This document shows, piece by piece, positions 55,733 to 63,937 of a stretch of DNA of 64,000 nt. The position numbers were made by a program, and so were the translations under genes. The notes beneath the pieces are model-generated. The model did no database searches, was not told where the DNA came from, and worked only from the letters and a program-made list of their open reading frames with translations. Source of the DNA: Pseudomonadota bacterium. Its GTDB lineage: Bacteria; Pseudomonadota; Alphaproteobacteria; Micavibrionales; CSBR16-224. The number at the start of each line of letters is the position of its first letter. Within the stretch, counting starts at the first letter, position 1. The stretch spans positions 318,870 through 382,869 of the forward strand of contig CP053449.1 in NCBI GenBank assembly GCA_013285465.1. The letters are read 5' to 3'.

Positions 55733-56110
55733 ATGAAGCTTTGGAAAAAATATCTCGGTGTTTTTGCCGTTTTGTCATTCCTGATGGCGGGGGTTCCCGG
55801 CATGGGTTATGCTTCGGCTGTCTGCGACTATGATGAAAACGCCGGAAAAACTGTGATGACACAGCAAAAAGACATGTCATCCGGTTGCCATGATATATCT
55901 TCCTCCTCCGAGATAGAAAAAACGGCGGAAACCAAGCAGGGTTGTTGTGAACCCTTCTGTGACGGTGTCGGTTGCGGTAAAATGCCGCTGGTGGCCCCTG
56001 CGGAAATGACTGATTTCAGAATGCCGCCCTTATCCGGTTATGAAGTATTTGACCTGACCTCCAATGGCACCCGTTTGGAACGATTGATGCGTCCGCCGAT
56101 CTTCCGCTGA
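55733..56110 (+). CDS. Small secreted Cys-rich protein, possible metal binder
   Basis: A 125-residue protein with a signal peptide (hydrophobic residues about 8-27, Ala-Ser-Ala site). The mature part has a Cys/His cluster: Cys in 'AVCDYDE', 'GCHDIS', and 'GCCEPFCDGVGCGKM', seven in total with a Met close by. The tail ends 'LMRPPIFR'. This recalls the small CopL/DUF2946-like proteins found beside copper-resistance genes, but similarity is only in pattern. It is divergent from the ABC exporter (46 bp) and 54 bp upstream of another secreted Cys protein. Confidence 0.6.
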   Translation: MKLWKKYLGVFAVLSFLMAGVPGMGYASAVCDYDENAGKTVMTQQKDMSSGCHDISSSSEIEKTAETKQGCCEPFCDGVGCGKMPLVAPAEMTDFRMPPLSGYEVFDLTSNGTRLERLMRPPIFR

Positions 56111-56164
56111 TAAATTCTGTAACCTGTTTTTGACAGGCAACGAAATATTATCAGGAGAAAAAAC

Positions 56165-56536
56165 ATGAAAAAAATTATTTTTACTTTTGCAGCATTCGTG
56201 CTGCTGTTATCCACCCCTGTTTTTGCACAGGATGCTGCCGCAGAAGCGGAAAATCCGTTCCCGTCTTTGCACAAGGTTGAGGCAAAATATGTCTGTATGG
56301 TGAATAACCGCGTCTTTCCTATTGTACAAATCCCCGTTGAAGTGGAAGGAAAGACCTATTACGGATGCTGTGCGATGTGTGAAGCGCGGCTTCAAAAAGA
56401 CGCCAGCCTACGCAAGGGGGTCGACCCGGTTAGCGGCGCGGAGGTGGATAAAGCCGATGCGGTGATCGGGGCAAAACGTGACGGTTCCGTTTATTACTTC
56501 GAAAATGAGGAAAATTACGAAGCCTTTCAGGAGTAA
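56165..56536 (+). CDS. Secreted TRASH/YHS-like metal-binding protein
   Basis: A 123-residue exported protein with a clear signal peptide (Phe-Ala-Gln site, about residue 21). The mature domain has 'AKYVCMVNNRVFP', 'TYYGCCAMCEARL' and 'VDPVSGAEVDKADAVIG', the spacing of TRASH/YHS-like domains that bind heavy metals through cysteines. TCAGGAG lies seven bases before the ATG. It most likely buffers or senses metal in the periplasm and precedes the efflux genes by 118 bp. Confidence 0.7.
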   Translation: MKKIIFTFAAFVLLLSTPVFAQDAAAEAENPFPSLHKVEAKYVCMVNNRVFPIVQIPVEVEGKTYYGCCAMCEARLQKDASLRKGVDPVSGAEVDKADAVIGAKRDGSVYYFENEENYEAFQE

Positions 56537-56654
56537 AAGAACCGCCTGCCGCGGCAGATTATCTTGTTATTGATTTTTTTCGAGGGTTTTTCCGCTGTAA
56601 CTGCGTATATAGTGGATAAAGCAAAAAACCGATCAGGAAAACGGCGGAAAACCT

Positions 56655-58121
56655 TTGAAAAGAAAATACAAACATTCACTCCATGCAAAAGGCTTGGCCT
56701 TGCTGCTGCCGTCGCTGATGCTATTGCAGGCGGGTTGTACCGCTGTGCCGGATGGGCGCGATCCGCTACAAATGTCGTCTTCCTATAGCCGTTCCCTGGA
56801 TAGCGCAGCGGGTTATGATGCTGTGCGCGGACAATATTGGCGGGAATTCGGTGATGATGCTTTGAATAAGCTGGTGGAAGAGGCGCTGAAAGACAATCCC
56901 AATCTCGAACGTGTACGGCAAAGATTATTGCAGGCCGAGGCTGTGGCAAAAAAAAGCGGTGCGGATTTATACCCCTCTGTCACCGTCACGGGCGGTCGCG
57001 ATTTGGGGCGTGGAACGGCGGCAGGCAGTGGTGATTTGAGCCTCAGCGGCGCCGCATCTTATGAGCTGGATATCTGGGGGAAGAATCGCGCATCTGCAAA
57101 ATCAGGCAAGCTTGACGCTTTTGGCGCTGCAGAAGATTTGCGCGCGGCAGCAGTAACATTGGCGGCGGAAATCATACAGGATTGGCTAAGATTGGCCGCT
57201 CTGCGTGAGGAAGAAGCATTGTTAAACCGCCAGATCAGCATTAATGAAAATGTGATGGAGCTGCAGCAGGCGCGTTTTTCAGGCGGTATTGCCTCGGCGC
57301 TGGATGTGTTGCAGCAAAAAGAAGTCCTTGCACGCGTACGGGCGCAATTGCCGGACGTACAGGCGGGGCAGGCGCTGGCCCTGAACCGTTTGGCGGTGCT
57401 GGCAGGGCGTAGCCCGGCGGAATTCATACCGCCTGATCAAGCGGCATTGCCGGCGTTGTTGCCCCTGCCCGGAGCCGGGTTGCCCAGCCTGTTGCTGGAG
57501 GAGCGGCCTGATATCCGTGCGGCATGGCTGCGGGTTTCTGCCGCCGATTGGGCAAAAGAAGCGGCCGCGGCTGACCGTTTGCCCGGCGTTAATCTGACGG
57601 CAAATTATGCAACAATGGGGGCGGCATTCGGTAATTTATTCACGAATTGGGCGCTGACACTGGCGGCATCGCTGGTTGCGCCGGTTATGGATGGCGGGAC
57701 GCGGGTTGCGGAAACCGCACGGCAGCAGGCTGTCGCGGATGAGCGGTTTCAAACCTACCGTGAAACCGTTTTAAACGCGCTGAAAGAAGTTGAAGATGCA
57801 CTGGCGCAGAACAAATATCAGGCCGATAAAATCACAGCGGTTGAGGAACAGCTTGAAGCCGCGCGTAATGCGCTGGCGCAGGCGCAGATCAGCTATACAA
57901 ATGGCAGTACGGATTATTTATCTGTTTTAAACGGGCTTTTAAATGTGCAAAGCCTTGAGAGACAGATGGTGCAGGCGCGGCGTGATTTATCGCTGTACCG
58001 TGTGATGTTGTACCGCGCGCTGGGCGGCCGCGGCTGGACGGATACCGTCATGGCAGATTCTGCGGAAAAACAGACTGAAACGGAAAACGGAGAGGAACAG
58101 GATGTTCGCGAAGCTCTTTAA
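56655..58121 (+). CDS. Outer-membrane efflux lipoprotein, NodT/OprM type
   Basis: The outer-membrane channel of the RND pump encoded next. A signal peptide ends in the lipobox 'LLQAGC', so it is a lipoprotein. Two TolC-type repeats follow, with 'WREFGDDALNKLVEEALKDNPNL' and 'ASYELDIWGKNRASAKSG' in the first and 'YETVLNALKEVEDALAQNKYQ'-like helix in the second. The 488 residues match the family. The start is a TTG at 56655; no suitable ATG lies before the signal peptide. It overlaps the adaptor gene by 20 bp. Confidence 0.92.
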   Translation: MKRKYKHSLHAKGLALLLPSLMLLQAGCTAVPDGRDPLQMSSSYSRSLDSAAGYDAVRGQYWREFGDDALNKLVEEALKDNPNLERVRQRLLQAEAVAKKSGADLYPSVTVTGGRDLGRGTAAGSGDLSLSGAASYELDIWGKNRASAKSGKLDAFGAAEDLRAAAVTLAAEIIQDWLRLAALREEEALLNRQISINENVMELQQARFSGGIASALDVLQQKEVLARVRAQLPDVQAGQALALNRLAVLAGRSPAEFIPPDQAALPALLPLPGAGLPSLLLEERPDIRAAWLRVSAADWAKEAAAADRLPGVNLTANYATMGAAFGNLFTNWALTLAASLVAPVMDGGTRVAETARQQAVADERFQTYRETVLNALKEVEDALAQNKYQADKITAVEEQLEAARNALAQAQISYTNGSTDYLSVLNGLLNVQSLERQMVQARRDLSLYRVMLYRALGGRGWTDTVMADSAEKQTETENGEEQDVREAL

Positions 58122-59301
58122 AATTATTCTGCCGGTAGCGGTGGTTGCGGGCGGCGTCTTTGTCGCCTTGTGGTATGTCGAAAATCCGGCAACGGTCGAG
58201 CGCCGCCCTGCGCCGCCGCCGATGGCGCTGCCTGTGGAAACTGCTGTGGCGGAAAGCGGTGATTATACCGTCGTGGTCGAGGCGATGGGACAGGTCATTC
58301 CTGCGACCAGCGCACAGATCAGACCGCAGGTCGGCGGTGAAATTATCACAACGGCGGATGGTTTTGTTCCGGGCGGTTTTTTTGTGCAGGATGCCGTCAT
58401 GTTGCAGATTGAGCCCGCCGATTATGAGCTGGCTGTCAAAAAACAACAGGCATTATTCCAGCAGGCGGAGGCGGCATACCGTTTGGAAATGGGGCGGCAG
58501 GAAGTTGCAAAAAACGAATTGGAGATGCTGGAAAGAACGACAGGAAAAAAACCGGCCAATACCGCACTTGCTTTGCGTCGCCCGCAACTGGATCAGGCGC
58601 GGGCGGAAATGGAAAAAGTGAAGGCTGATCTTGATACGGCGCAGCTGGCTTTGTCACGCACGGCTGTAAAAGCACCGTTCAACGCCTTGGTGACGGAGCG
58701 GCGCGCCGTGCGCGGCGACCGTGTGGCAGCGCAGGAGATTGTGGCGACATTGGCGGGAACGGATGAATACTGGGTTGAATTATCGGTTCCCTTAAGTGAT
58801 TTGCGCTGGCTGCATTTTCCGGCACCGGCGGAAATTGTACTGGATGGAAAGCGCGGCACACGACAGGCGCAGCTGGTACGTATGACCGGAAAACTTGATG
58901 AAGCCAGCCGTCTTGCCGGTGTGCTGGTGGCGGTGGCTGATCCGATGCTGTTGGCGGAAGATGCGTCAGTCACAGATTTTCCAATGATGCTGGGGGATTA
59001 CGTGCGGGTGCGGATCAAAGGTGAAAAACTGACAAACACCGTACGCGTACCGCTGGCATGGTTGCGTGACGGCAGCATTGTCTGGACGGCGCAGGACGGT
59101 TTGTTGAAATTTAATGCCGTGCAGATTTTACGGGAAGACCGCGATTACGCCTATATTGCCGAGGGATTGACAGCAGGGGACATGCTGGTGACATCCGATA
59201 TCTCCGTTCCTGTAGAAGGAATGAAAATCCGTACGGATGCGGAAGCCGTGAAAGAAAATGTGACATCCGGTGCAATCCTTCCTGAAGGAGGTACTGAATG
59301 A
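58102..59301 (+). CDS. RND efflux periplasmic adaptor
   Basis: A 399-residue membrane fusion protein. One N-terminal helix (residues 5-25) anchors it. Next come the split lipoyl/barrel-sandwich halves ('GQVIPATSAQIRPQVGGEI' and 'LSRTAVKAPFNALVTERRAVRGDRV') around a coiled-coil hairpin (about 110-180), then beta-barrel and membrane-proximal domains. No His- or Met-rich metal-binding extension of the CusB/CzcB kind is visible. It overlaps the pump gene by four bases (ATGA). Confidence 0.95.
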   Translation: MFAKLFKIILPVAVVAGGVFVALWYVENPATVERRPAPPPMALPVETAVAESGDYTVVVEAMGQVIPATSAQIRPQVGGEIITTADGFVPGGFFVQDAVMLQIEPADYELAVKKQQALFQQAEAAYRLEMGRQEVAKNELEMLERTTGKKPANTALALRRPQLDQARAEMEKVKADLDTAQLALSRTAVKAPFNALVTERRAVRGDRVAAQEIVATLAGTDEYWVELSVPLSDLRWLHFPAPAEIVLDGKRGTRQAQLVRMTGKLDEASRLAGVLVAVADPMLLAEDASVTDFPMMLGDYVRVRIKGEKLTNTVRVPLAWLRDGSIVWTAQDGLLKFNAVQILREDRDYAYIAEGLTAGDMLVTSDISVPVEGMKIRTDAEAVKENVTSGAILPEGGTE

Positions 59302-62300
59302 GCGCAAACAAGACAGATCACCCGGACGAGATTGAAAACGGTCCGATCAAATGGATGGCGGCGCATCCTGTGGCCGCTAATCTGTTGATGGTGATTTGCC
59401 TGTTGGGCGGGCTTTTTATTTTTACGCAATCAACGCAGGAGGTCTTTCCCGAATTTGCGCTGGATACGGTCACAGTACGCATGTCTTACCCCGGTGCCAG
59501 CCCCGAAGAGGTGGAACAGGGGATTGTGCTGGCCGTGGAGGATGCGGTGCGTGATATTGAAGGGCTGGGAGAAATCACCTCCCGCGCGACAGAGGGGGCG
59601 GCATCGGTTTCTGTCGAGGTTCTTGATACTGAAAATATGATGCGGGTTTTGCAGGATGTGCAATCCGCCGTGGACCGTGTAACGACCTTTCCGGTTGATG
59701 CGGAAAATCTGACAGTGGCAATCAACAGCCGCCGCCGTGATGTGGTGACATTAGCATTATTCGGCGATGCGGATGAACGCGTTTTGCGCAATGCGGCGGA
59801 ACAAGTGCAGGCGGTGCTGGAACAGGATCCGGATATCGGCCCGGTTGAGCTCGGCGGCGTGCGCGATTACGAAATCCATATCGAAGTGTCGCAGGATAAT
59901 CTGCGCCGTTATAATCTTAGCCTGCCGCAGATTGCGCAGCGTGTGCGGCAGACAGCGCTGGAGCTGGGCGGCGGTGCGTTGGATACGACCAGCGGCGAAA
60001 TTCTTGTCCGTATGACGGAGAGGCGCGATACGGCAAAGCAATTCCGTGACGTGCCGGTGATTATCCAGCCCAATGGCAGTCAGGTTTTACTGGGGGATAT
60101 TGCGCATATCCGTGAAGCTTTTGCCGACAGCAATAATTATGCGGTTTATAACGGCCATCAGGCGGTATTTCTGGATGTATACCGTATCGGTGACCAAACA
60201 CCGGTCGGTGTTTCCTCCCGCGTGAAAGCGCATATCGCAACGCTGAATGAAACACTGCCGCCGGGGATTGATATCATCGTGCTGGATGACCGTTCCAAAA
60301 TCTTTCAGCAACGTGCGGCGTTGCTGGTCAAGAACGGGTTATGGGGGCTGGGTCTGGTTGTGCTGCTATTGACCTTTTTTCTGGAAACGCGGCTGGCTTT
60401 CTGGGTGAGTATGGGGATACCGATTGCTTTTATGGGCGCGTTCCTGACTTTTCCGGCGACAGATTTTACGGTCAATATCGTGAGCATGTTCGCCTTTATC
60501 ATCGCATTGGGGCTGGTGGTGGATGATGCCATCGTATCGGGGGAAAATATTTACAGCTACCGTCAGAAAGGCATGTCGCCGCTGATGGCAGCCGTCACCG
60601 GTGCGCGCGAGATTGCCTATCCCGTCACGGTCAGCGTATTGACCAATATTGTTGCCTTCCTGCCGCTGTTTTTCATGCCGGGGACAATCGGCAAAATTTT
60701 CAGTGTTATTCCGGTCGTTGTTTGTGCCGTCTTTCTGTTTTCCCTGATTGAATGCCTGTTTGTGCTGCCGGCGCATCTGGCCTTTACGCGCAGTAAAAAA
60801 GAGCCGGGCAAGGTCATGAAATTTCTGGGCACACCGAAAAGAAAATTCCAGCGCGGTTTTCAGTATTTTGTGAAACGGTATTTTCGCCGTTTTATCGGCA
60901 TGACGGTGCGCCACCGCTATTTTGTCGTTGCACTGTTTATGGCTTTTCTCGCCGGAGTCGGCGGCTATGTCGGCAGCGGGCGTATGGGGATGGAGATGTT
61001 CCCGCGGGTGGAATCCGATTATGCTTTTGCCTCCGTGACATTGCCGGTCGGCACGCCGATGGAGCGTGTTATGACGGTGCAGAAACATATGCTGGATGCG
61101 GCGAAAAAAGTGGTGGAGGAAAACGGCGGTGACAGGCTTGCAACCGGTGTTTACGGTAAAATCGCCGAAAATGTGATTGAGGCGCGGATTTACCTGACGG
61201 ATCCCGATATCCGTCCGGTCAGTACGCGCGAGACAGTGGCCCTGTGGCGTGACGAAGTCGGTGTGATAACCGGTCTGGAATCCTCCTCCTTTCTGTCGAA
61301 TAGGGGCGGGCCGGGATCGGGCGCGGCTTTGACGGTGGAATTAAGCCATACCGATACGGCCGTGCTGGATGCGGCAGCGCAGCGTTTGGCTGTGGCATTG
61401 GCGGATTTCCCGAATACGAAAGATATTGATGACGGATCGGCGCAGGGGAAAAAGCAGTTTAATTTCCGCATGACCACGCTGGGCTATACGCTGGGGATGA
61501 CGACGGAAAATGTTGCGCGGCAGGTGCGGGCGGCTTTCTATGGCAGCGAGGTTTTTAAACAGCAGCGCGGGCGTGATGAAGTCCGTATATTGGTGCGTTT
61601 GCCCGAAGCGCAACGCTCGTCACAATATGATTTATACAATCTGATGCTGCGTGCGCCGGACGGGTCGGATGTGATGCTGCGCGATGTGGTCACGATGGAA
61701 GAAGGCCGCGCCTATACCTCGATTTACCGCCGCGACGGACGCCGTGTTGTGCAGGTGGCTGCAGATGTGGACCCGCCTTCGCAGGCGGGACGCATTATCA
61801 ATGTTATTACGCAGGATGCGTTGCCGGAATTGCAGCGCCGCTATCCAGGATTAACCTATTCTTTTGAAGGGCGGCAGGCGGAAATTCGCGACAGTATTAT
61901 GAGCCTTCTTTGGGGGCTGTTTGCCGTGCTGTTTGTGATTTATGCCTTGCTGGCTTTGCAATTCGGCAGCTACAGTCAGCCTTTGATGGTGCTGTTGGCC
62001 ATTCCTTTCGGCGCAATCGGTGCGGTTTTCGGCCATATGATTATGGGCTATTCCTTAAGTGTGATGAGCCTCTTGGGGATGATGGCACTGTCAGGGGTTG
62101 TGGTGAACGGATCGCTGATTTTGGTCGATTTTGCCAATCGCCGCCGCGCAAAGGGAATGACGATAAAAAGCGCGATTACCGATGCCTCCGTACTGCGTTT
62201 TCGTCCGATTTTGCTGACGACTCTGACGACGTTTATCGGACTGGCACCGATGATTTTTGAAACCTCGCGGCAGGCGCGGTTCTTGATTCCGATGGCGATT

Positions 62301-62480
62301 TCACTAGGTTTTGGAATTTTGTTTGCGGCGCTTATCACGCTGGTGCTTATTCCGGCTTTCTATGTCATTATAGTGGATATCAGAGGCTTTTTTGGCGCAC
62401 GCAAAGCAAGGAAAGAACAGCGAAGTGAAAAACCGCAAGGACAGACCGGACAAGAACAGTCAGAAGGAGGGGCGGGATGA
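59298..62480 (+). CDS. RND efflux pump, HAE type
   Basis: A 1060-residue inner-membrane RND transporter. Twelve membrane helices and two large periplasmic loops are in place. The first helix starts after 'IKWMAAHPVAANLL', and helix 4 has 'LGLVVDDAIVSGENIY' with the two proton-relay Asp residues. This DD form is typical of pumps for organic compounds (HAE), not of heavy-metal pumps, which usually have a single Asp there. The tail is polar (Lys/Gln/Gly-rich) and overlaps the sigma-factor gene. Likely substrates are drugs, detergents or envelope lipids. Confidence 0.95.
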   Translation: MSANKTDHPDEIENGPIKWMAAHPVAANLLMVICLLGGLFIFTQSTQEVFPEFALDTVTVRMSYPGASPEEVEQGIVLAVEDAVRDIEGLGEITSRATEGAASVSVEVLDTENMMRVLQDVQSAVDRVTTFPVDAENLTVAINSRRRDVVTLALFGDADERVLRNAAEQVQAVLEQDPDIGPVELGGVRDYEIHIEVSQDNLRRYNLSLPQIAQRVRQTALELGGGALDTTSGEILVRMTERRDTAKQFRDVPVIIQPNGSQVLLGDIAHIREAFADSNNYAVYNGHQAVFLDVYRIGDQTPVGVSSRVKAHIATLNETLPPGIDIIVLDDRSKIFQQRAALLVKNGLWGLGLVVLLLTFFLETRLAFWVSMGIPIAFMGAFLTFPATDFTVNIVSMFAFIIALGLVVDDAIVSGENIYSYRQKGMSPLMAAVTGAREIAYPVTVSVLTNIVAFLPLFFMPGTIGKIFSVIPVVVCAVFLFSLIECLFVLPAHLAFTRSKKEPGKVMKFLGTPKRKFQRGFQYFVKRYFRRFIGMTVRHRYFVVALFMAFLAGVGGYVGSGRMGMEMFPRVESDYAFASVTLPVGTPMERVMTVQKHMLDAAKKVVEENGGDRLATGVYGKIAENVIEARIYLTDPDIRPVSTRETVALWRDEVGVITGLESSSFLSNRGGPGSGAALTVELSHTDTAVLDAAAQRLAVALADFPNTKDIDDGSAQGKKQFNFRMTTLGYTLGMTTENVARQVRAAFYGSEVFKQQRGRDEVRILVRLPEAQRSSQYDLYNLMLRAPDGSDVMLRDVVTMEEGRAYTSIYRRDGRRVVQVAADVDPPSQAGRIINVITQDALPELQRRYPGLTYSFEGRQAEIRDSIMSLLWGLFAVLFVIYALLALQFGSYSQPLMVLLAIPFGAIGAVFGHMIMGYSLSVMSLLGMMALSGVVVNGSLILVDFANRRRAKGMTIKSAITDASVLRFRPILLTTLTTFIGLAPMIFETSRQARFLIPMAISLGFGILFAALITLVLIPAFYVIIVDIRGFFGARKARKEQRSEKPQGQTGQEQSEGGAG

Positions 62481-63072
62481 GGAAAAACGCCTGGCCTATT
62501 TCCCTGACCGGAAACGGGAAGACCCTGTATTCTCGGAACTGTCGGATGAAACACTGGCGGCAATGGTGCGGGATGGCGATCAACGGGCTTTCGCAGAGAT
62601 TGTGCACCGTTACGCCCGTAAATGTTACGGCTTTGCTTTTAAATATGTTGCAGACCGGGAAGATGCGGAGGATGTCGTGCAAACCGCTTTGATGAAATTC
62701 TGGCAGCGCCCGCATATGTGGGATCCGGAGCGCAAGACGCGTTTCGCAACATGGTTTTACCGTGTTGTGCTGAATGCCTGCCGCGATGCGCTGCGCGCCC
62801 GTAAAACCGTGCTGCCGCTTTTCGAAGAAGCCGTTCCGGCGGAGGGTATCGCAAGCGGGGAAGAGGCTTTGATAAAACAGGATGTGCTGCAGGCGCTGTC
62901 ACGTTTACCGGAACGCCAGCATCAGGCAATCCTGCTGTGTTTTTATGAGGGGATGACCCATACCGAGGCGGCGGCTGTGATGGAGACAACGCCAAAATCA
63001 GTCGAGTTGCTGGTACGCCGTGCGAAAACGGCGCTGAAACAGAAGATGGAAAAAGAAGGAGGCTGGACATGA
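62425..63072 (+). CDS. ECF-type RNA polymerase sigma factor
   Basis: A 215-residue sigma-70 family protein with region 2 ('DQRAFAEIVHRYARKCYGFA', 'DREDAEDVVQTALMKFWQR') and region 4 ('ALSRLPERQHQAILLCFYEG', 'THTEAAAVMETTPKSVELLV') and no regions 1 or 3, the ECF layout. About 45 basic, polar residues precede region 2. I favour the GTG at 62425, nine bases after AAGGAAAG; TTG 62392 is the alternative. Either way the start lies inside the pump gene (56 or 89 bp overlap). The next gene, overlapped by four bases, should be its inhibitor. Confidence 0.92.
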   Translation: MKNRKDRPDKNSQKEGRDEEKRLAYFPDRKREDPVFSELSDETLAAMVRDGDQRAFAEIVHRYARKCYGFAFKYVADREDAEDVVQTALMKFWQRPHMWDPERKTRFATWFYRVVLNACRDALRARKTVLPLFEEAVPAEGIASGEEALIKQDVLQALSRLPERQHQAILLCFYEGMTHTEAAAVMETTPKSVELLVRRAKTALKQKMEKEGGWT

Positions 63073-63482
63073 CGGAACGGGAATTTCGCGATTATCTGGA
63101 CTCCTATGGTGCGGCGCTGGAAAAATGGCCGCAGCATCTGCGCGTCAAGGCAGAGAAAGCACTCGTGGAAGATGCGGCACTGCGCGATGTACTGACGGCT
63201 GAAAAAGAATTTTCCCGCGCCTTTGCGGTGGATGTTCCCGCGCCTGACGGGGAGTTTGAAAACCGTATTCTGGCGGCATCATATGCCTTGCCGCAAAAAG
63301 CGGTGTTGCAGGACGACACCCTGCCGCGTTTGATATCATGGCGTATTGCGGCATCCGTTTTGCTGTTTGCGGCAGGTATTGCGCTGGGCAGTTTGCAACA
63401 AGCTGCCCGGACAGATGGTTATGCAGTGCAAGCTGACACGCTGATGAGCTATTACGCCTATAGTGAAGACGGGGGGATGTAA
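63069..63482 (+). CDS. Putative membrane anti-sigma factor
   Basis: A 137-residue protein with an N-terminal soluble region of about 95 residues, one membrane helix (about 97-113) and a short periplasmic tail. It lacks the HxxxCxxC zinc motif of ZAS-type anti-sigma factors, but topology and a four-base overlap with the ECF sigma gene are typical of anti-sigma factors. It should hold the sigma factor at the membrane until the periplasmic partner signals. No sequence motif alone proves the role. Confidence 0.7.
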   Translation: MTEREFRDYLDSYGAALEKWPQHLRVKAEKALVEDAALRDVLTAEKEFSRAFAVDVPAPDGEFENRILAASYALPQKAVLQDDTLPRLISWRIAASVLLFAAGIALGSLQQAARTDGYAVQADTLMSYYAYSEDGGM

Positions 63483-63937
63483 TGAAACGCTTGAAAACCG
63501 CATTGCTGATTTCCGTAGCCCTGAATATTTTTCTGGGCGGGCTTTTTCTGGGCGGGAAAATCTCGTCTTTACAGCCGCCTGCTGCCAGCCCTGTCAGTCA
63601 GGTTCTGACAGCCGAAAAGCAGAGTCGTTATCAGGCGGAAATGGAAAAAGCGCGGCAGCGCTTCCGCGAAGGGCGTGAAAAATATGACGCACTCCATACG
63701 GCTTTAATGGCGGCGATGGAGGCAGAGAATTTTGATCGCGCCGCTTTCGATACAATTGCGGCGGATATGCTGACAGAGCGGACATCTCCTTTATCCTCAT
63801 TCCTGACCACGGCGGCGGAACTGGCGGCGGATATGGATTTCGAAGAACGTAAAGCCATGGCCGCTGATATCAGATTGCGTTACAAAGCATATCGTGCGCG
63901 TCAAAACTGTCCTGATGCGGCGGAGAAAAAGGAATAA
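63482..63937 (+). CDS. Periplasmic sensor, CnrX/ZraP/CpxP-like
   Basis: A 151-residue protein anchored by one N-terminal helix (residues 7-25), followed by an all-helical periplasmic domain with 'YQAEMEKARQRFREGREKYDALHTALMAAMEAENFDRAAFD'-type long helices (the stretch lies at residues 50-90). This hairpin resembles the heavy-metal-sensor/CpxP-like fold of CnrX and ZraP. One late Cys ('QNCPDAA') and few His/Met residues make metal binding uncertain. It starts at the last base of the preceding stop, so the three genes are translationally coupled. Confidence 0.7.
   Translation: MKRLKTALLISVALNIFLGGLFLGGKISSLQPPAASPVSQVLTAEKQSRYQAEMEKARQRFREGREKYDALHTALMAAMEAENFDRAAFDTIAADMLTERTSPLSSFLTTAAELAADMDFEERKAMAADIRLRYKAYRARQNCPDAAEKKE

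Follow-up and report, generated by a model that had tools for sequence, protein, structure and literature searches.

Which signal governs a tripartite efflux pump when the genes of an extracytoplasmic function (ECF) sigma factor, an anti-sigma factor and a periplasmic sensor follow it in one overlapping chain, and which genes answer to that switch? The question is raised by the window analysed here, a stretch of 64,000 nucleotides (contig CP053449.1, positions 318,870 to 382,869, forward strand; assembly GCA_013285465.1) from the single-contig, 2.67-Mb genome of a bacterium related to Micavibrio (G000), which was compared with two other members of the same genus (G001 and G002). A preliminary description of the window had recognised at positions 55733-63937 an eight-gene module made of two secreted cysteine-rich proteins, a resistance-nodulation-division (RND) pump, an ECF sigma factor, an anti-sigma factor and a CnrX-like sensor. 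All eight open reading frames are indeed present, on the + strand (Table 1); the reading put forward here, which we hold to be likely, is that positions 56582-63937 carry a positively autoregulated six-gene efflux operon, controlled by a Cnr-like switch that is devoid of the metal site of CnrX and responds to a signal more likely related to the envelope.

The promoter-like element and the extent of the operon

As predicted from sequence, the unit is a six-gene operon encoding an outer-membrane channel, a periplasmic adaptor, an HAE1-like RND pump, an ECF sigma factor, an anti-sigma factor and a periplasmic sensor. The overlaps described earlier among these genes are borne out by their coordinates: channel and adaptor genes share 20 bp, adaptor and permease genes 4 bp, permease and sigma factor genes 56 bp with the GTG start of the latter (89 bp with an upstream TTG start), sigma and anti-sigma factor genes 4 bp, anti-sigma factor and sensor genes 1 bp. 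The two genes for cysteine-rich proteins stand outside this chain, with a gap of 54 bp between the first (CysA) and the second (the YHS protein) and one of 118 bp between the latter and the channel gene. It is in this 118-bp gap that a promoter-like element, GAGGGTTTTT-N12-CGTATA, is located, identical in the three species despite the diverged flanks of G002; in a post hoc comparison, the best ungapped match between the gaps of G000 and G002 is 19, against a mean of 8.7 and a maximum of 18 in shuffles, none out of 500 being as high. Because the element sits after the cysteine-protein genes and directly before the pump, the operon would begin with the channel gene and the cysteine-protein pair would be separate from it; a unit of eight genes was rejected on the position of the motif and on the absence of the pair at the pump locus of G002.

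A relaxed form of the element, AGGGTTTT-N12/13-CGTRT, occurs at five places in the genome and nowhere in a reversed control; the five sites precede the pump, the operon of a paralogous sigma factor (sigma2), a divergent DUF3106 gene, a FecR-domain gene and a RED-repeat gene, signal-like N-termini being found in the products of all except sigma2. No other finding argues more strongly than this set of sites that such elements are read by sigma factors of this type, with the pump among their targets; with the conserved motif lying right before the pump, the earlier proposal of a self-regulating efflux system is very probably correct.

The same set of sites bears on the identity of the sigma factor that would read the pump promoter. 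It could be argued that this task belongs to sigma2 (~815 kb of the genome), the trio linked to the pump being a secondary or decaying copy, as the sigma2 operon, too, has AGGGTTTT-N12-CGT elements on its flanks (one belongs to the sigma2 trio itself, another lies before the divergent DUF3106 gene); however, the pump-linked sigma factor (sigma1), its anti-sigma factor and its sensor are intact and conserved in G002, and the pump site is slightly unlike the sigma2 sites in both spacer and -10, making this explanation very improbable.

Two of the genes behind the relaxed sites deserve a short mention: the FecR-domain gene (G000 ~499 kb; L205, 1501-2499) has its start codon ~24 nt after the element and a product with a signal-like N-terminus, while the product of the RED-repeat gene (G000 ~524.8 kb; L206, 1501-2361), which has no Pfam family, consists mostly of REDVRDR-type repeats behind a signal-like N-terminus. 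A sigma-70 promoter scan gave matches only at chance level, and a PADLOC scan gave no match.

Table 1. Coordinates of the genes and of the promoter-like element within the window
Feature	Position	Strand	Evidence or remark
Exported cysteine protein CysA, 125 amino acids, weakly CopL-like	55733..56110	+	Neighbour, outside the predicted six-gene operon
Exported YHS/TRASH-like cysteine protein, 123 amino acids	56165..56536	+	Neighbour, outside the predicted six-gene operon
Promoter-like element GAGGGTTTTT-N12-CGTATA, putative ECF sigma target	56582..56609	+	Identical in G000, G001 and G002
Outer-membrane channel (OEP, NodT-type), TTG start	56655..58121	+	PF02321, E 6e-41; TIGR01845 above cut-off
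Periplasmic adaptor (membrane fusion protein)	58102..59301	+	TIGR01730, 117.7 bits, above cut-off; HlyD_D23/HlyD_3
RND permease, nearer HAE1 than heavy-metal models	59298..62480	+	ACR_tran, E 5e-164
ECF sigma factor	62425..63072	+	Sigma70_r2, r4_2; GTG start backed by the G001 orthologue; TTG at 62392 also open
Candidate anti-sigma factor: N-terminal helices, one transmembrane helix, short C-terminal tail	63069..63482	+	Position; co-conservation with the sigma factor
Membrane-anchored periplasmic sensor, CnrX/ZraP/Spy/CpxP-like helical hairpin	63482..63937	+	PF13801, 37.4 bits

The regulatory trio, the pump and the likely signal

Known systems of this kind suggest that a periplasmic signal probably turns the operon on and that the operon then boosts its own expression. 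In the resting state, the sigma factor would be kept at the inner membrane by the single-pass anti-sigma factor, in a complex stabilised or gated by the membrane-anchored hairpin sensor, much as CnrX acts on CnrY; the signal, reaching the periplasm, would alter the sensor and thereby release the sigma factor, which would transcribe from GAGGGTTTTT-N12-CGTATA the genes of the channel, the adaptor, the RND pump and the three regulators themselves, raising the output of the pump.

That an ECF sigma factor, an anti-sigma factor and a sensor of the CnrX fold accompany the pump, as described before, agrees with the family matches of the sigma factor and the sensor and with the linkage of trio and pump in all three members of the genus. 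The orthologues of the sigma factor are 86% (G001) and 60% (G002) identical, and in G002 identity amounts to 38-48% for the anti-sigma factor and 44-45% for the sensor. The candidate anti-sigma factor finds no match in Pfam or NCBIfam; its AlphaFold model, of low confidence (predicted TM score 0.33), places helices at residues 3-15, 22-51, 61-73 and 86-133, and a fold search on this model, in which a CnrY-like class II fold was looked for, gave no match. Across the order, members of this family have in common an R-I-(I/L) motif at the N-terminus and a transmembrane segment; many anti-sigma factors of the order also end in GG(W/M), GG(W/M)L or WL at the C-terminus, possibly a contact with the sensor.

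The sensor scores above the gathering cut-off (29.2 bits) of PF13801 (Metal_resist), and its AlphaFold model (mean pLDDT, the predicted local distance difference test, 88) matches the folds of CpxP, ZraP, Spy and CnrX; since the Foldseek E-values are weak (~0.1) and the Z-scores of 9-10 modest for a helical hairpin, its membership of this fold class is likely, short of proven. The residues by which CnrX binds metal are missing: no histidine is conserved across the three orthologues and the CnrX ligand columns are occupied by gaps or by T, L or M, while a comparison with CnrX and NccX gave no match at E<=10 and the PDB no relevant one. Metal sensing of the CnrX type was rejected on the lack of these ligands (HxxxH, HxxxM).

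As for the pump, the best model of the permease is RND_permease_2 (HAE1-type; 479 bits, below its cut-off of 1250), while the heavy-metal model TIGR00914 (CusA/CzcA, HME) yields 269.7 bits against a curated cut-off of 701.5; the nearest solved relative by sequence is MdtB. The pair D409-D410 in the fourth transmembrane segment is invariant across eight orthologues of the permease, and Asn937 presumably occupies the position of Lys940 of AcrB, as mapped from the AcrB motif. Judging from these matches, the pump is probably HAE1-like and not a metal exporter. The switch would more likely answer an envelope-active compound, or damage to the envelope, than Ni, Co, Zn or Cu held at a site of the CnrX type. 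Accounts of drug-type RND pumps usually place them under one- or two-component regulators; to our knowledge, control by a dedicated ECF sigma factor and a sensor of the CnrX fold has been described for metal pumps.

The model for such control is CnrYXH of Cupriavidus metallidurans, where the sigma factor released from the membrane complex of anti-sigma factor and sensor transcribes both the regulators and the pump (PMC4803752, PMC7689651). CnrYXH-CnrCBA, like NccYXH, has in common with the present locus an ECF sigma factor, a membrane anti-sigma factor, a membrane-anchored periplasmic sensor, likely of the same fold class, and a tripartite RND pump; unlike here, where the order is pump, sigma, anti-sigma and sensor, the Cnr trio precedes the pump in the order anti-sigma, sensor and sigma, CnrX carries the ligands H42/H46/H119/M123, the pump is of the heavy-metal type and the anti-sigma factor is CnrY, to which the present one bears no recognisable likeness. 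The parallel with CnrH-CnrY-CnrX drawn in the preliminary description is thus retained for fold and layout, and given up for the metal ligands and the class of the pump.

The order sigma factor, anti-sigma factor and periplasmic protein is a workable one, since SigAb-AabA-AabB of Acinetobacter baumannii, a positively autoregulated system answering copper, operates so (PMC12153292); likened by layout, it shares with the present trio overlapping genes, an ECF sigma factor, a small transmembrane anti-sigma factor and a periplasmic protein, there with anti-sigma activity, and it differs in the copper response and in having no pump in the operon. An alphaproteobacterial operon with the same trio order, also likened by layout, encodes RpoE8, a hypothetical protein and a 'periplasmic heavy metal sensor' in Azospirillum brasilense (PMC12826043); unlike here, no pump is reported in it.

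The two cysteine-protein genes and the case for copper

Two exported cysteine-rich proteins do precede the pump genes, CysA with six cysteines and the YHS protein with four, both with signal-like N-termini. CysA scores 17.5 bits (E 0.005) against the CopL model NF033807, whose cut-off of 40 is not reached, and its G001 orthologue is 64% identical. The second protein matches YHS with 23.3 bits (E 6e-5) and TRASH with 20 bits (E 7e-4) in Pfam; as both scores fall under the gathering cut-offs (30.3 and 27, respectively), it is at most distantly related to these families.

Unlinking of the cysteine proteins in relatives had been named beforehand as evidence against the eight-gene module, and G002 is such a case: its channel gene directly adjoins an ABC transporter gene with no cysteine pair in between, and CusB/CusA, not the pump, are the neighbours of its YHS and CopL-like genes. 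Among 25 loci with homologues of the YHS protein, 20 have a gene for a multicopper oxidase, a CopB-like protein, a Cu-ATPase or CusAB no more than ~7 kb away, and two of the remaining five are at contig ends. From this distribution, the two genes look like a copper-resistance pair that now adjoins the operon, and the module of eight genes, the pair lying upstream of the promoter-like motif, has not survived the comparison.

A copper module of eight genes, in which the cysteine proteins would bind periplasmic copper, the sensor would detect metal as CnrX does and the pump would export metal or metal complexes, could account for the adjacent and co-oriented pair in G000 and G001, for a sensor belonging to PF13801, for the YHS homologues in copper clusters and for the copper response of SigAb in Acinetobacter (PMC12153292). 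We nevertheless regard it as unlikely, given that no such pair adjoins the pump in G002, that the pair lies before the motif elsewhere, that the permease scores lower on the heavy-metal than on the HAE1 model and that the CnrX ligands are missing, while a separate set endowed with them exists in the same genome. The genome contains four sets of sigma factor, anti-sigma factor and PF13801-like genes, and the one at ~113 kb (L033; G000 ~112-115 kb), in the order anti-sigma, sensor and sigma, lies beside RND genes of the heavy-metal CzcA/CusA type; its sensor matches CnrX at 4e-11 and keeps both HxxxH and HxxxM. The two further trios are found at ~815 kb (that of sigma2; L032, 9484-12304) and at ~190 kb (L034, 6455-8025).

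Several points weigh against the six-gene operon with a non-metal signal. The role of the anti-sigma factor is proposed from position and topology, its model being weak; the sensor may bind metal at another site, for example one made of Asp, Glu and Met residues or Cys143, this cysteine near the C-terminus and several methionines being conserved among the three orthologues. The cysteine-protein genes are adjacent to the pump and co-oriented with it in two species (G000 and G001), and transcription from them may run on into the pump genes; a terminator scan found no clear terminator between the pair and the pump. Finally, the motif was found by looking, which makes its statistics post hoc, and some of its sites may serve sigma2 and not sigma1.

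Distribution in the order and a parallel in Thermodesulfobacteriota

Pump and trio are kept together in all three members of the genus (in G001 all eight genes are present, divided over two contigs), and at E<=1e-45 sigma1 is confined to these three among 142 genomes of the order; the arrangement is therefore no chance. Orthologues of the pump occur in eight genomes of other genera (53-65% identical), accompanied by neither the trio nor the cysteine-protein genes, and the promoter-like element is not found before any of these eight. Trios of the same gene order without a pump are common across the order, and the CnrX ligand pattern is not seen in their sensors either.

This abundance of pump-less trios, together with the motif found before exported-protein genes elsewhere in the genome, would suit a general envelope-stress switch of the sigma2 type, for which the pump is one target of several and its linkage incidental; the confinement of sigma1 to the genus, always with the pump, and the full form GAGGGTTTTT-N12-CGTATA, whose single occurrence in the genome is before the pump, speak against such a switch, which we consider improbable.

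In 385 genomes of the class, searched with strict cut-offs for this pump or this sigma factor, no further pump-trio pair came to light, and outside the genus no pump operon was seen to carry this trio at its 3' end. The named genomes scanned yielded 80 pump relatives with >=50% identity, the contigs of several being too short to judge the flanks; six of the 80 (L112, L114, L120, L124, L138 and L166) have, just upstream of the pump and in the Cnr order, genes for an anti-sigma factor, a periplasmic protein of 153-163 amino acids and an ECF sigma factor. By name, five belong to Thermodesulfobacteriota and one (L114) is labelled Proteobacteria, the species including Desulfosarcina widdelii, Desulfobacter vibrioformis and Desulfoluna spongiiphila. 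The novelty claimed for the arrangement is accordingly limited to the 3' position of the trio, seen only in the genus, since the same pump clade bears such trios upstream in Thermodesulfobacteriota.

Of the six periplasmic proteins, two exceed the PF13801 cut-off and two more match that family below it; a fifth bears a weak likeness to LTXXQ, and the last shows no convincing family match. A motif, GCAGG-N16-CGTT, precedes the trio in five of the six operons, the remaining one having a near-match there, and two operons carry it before the channel gene as well; its background is 0.02 per kb, giving a post hoc P of ~6e-11 for the five. These operons resemble that of G000 in the RND clade (50-55% identical), in the three kinds of regulator and in the ECF-like promoter motifs, and differ from it in the upstream trio of Cnr order and in a zinc-finger anti-sigma factor (zf-HC2). 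Their sigma factors form a clade apart from sigma1 (support 100/99), and the RND tree places pumps that lack a trio between the two groups that have one, which are widely separated. A common origin of the two associations is disfavoured by the sigma tree, although an approximately unbiased (AU) test of uniting the groups does not reject it (p 0.28); because the tree separates the groups and the test fails to reject their union, independent recruitment of trios by the pump clade, the simpler reading of the sequences, is likely and not proven.

A wider proposal may tentatively be advanced, with somewhat more doubt than trust: that the trios widespread in the order represent a branch of the CnrYXH type free of the metal site, sensing the state of the envelope or amphiphiles, and that one clade of HAE1-like pumps recruited such trios at least twice independently, at the 3' end in the genus and at the 5' end in Thermodesulfobacteriota. 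If the sensor reads no metals, the label 'periplasmic heavy metal sensor' carried by many PF13801 proteins would be misleading, and the operon, with its defined promoter-like element, would offer a compact system to learn what these proteins sense; the parallel in sulfate-reducing bacteria provides culturable species for tests.

Two minor observations concern other pumps of the clade. At a locus from Phycisphaerae (L168; 12278-14091), another of the 80 relatives, in whose flank no PF13801-like gene was seen, a same-clade pump is followed ~220 bp downstream by an unrelated ECF sigma factor gene and a putative zinc-finger-type partner. In other genera (L079, L080, L082, L083, L085 and L092), the trio-less pump adjoins, as judged by eye, TamA/TamB-like genes, one encoding a protein of ~590 amino acids and the other a large single-span protein.

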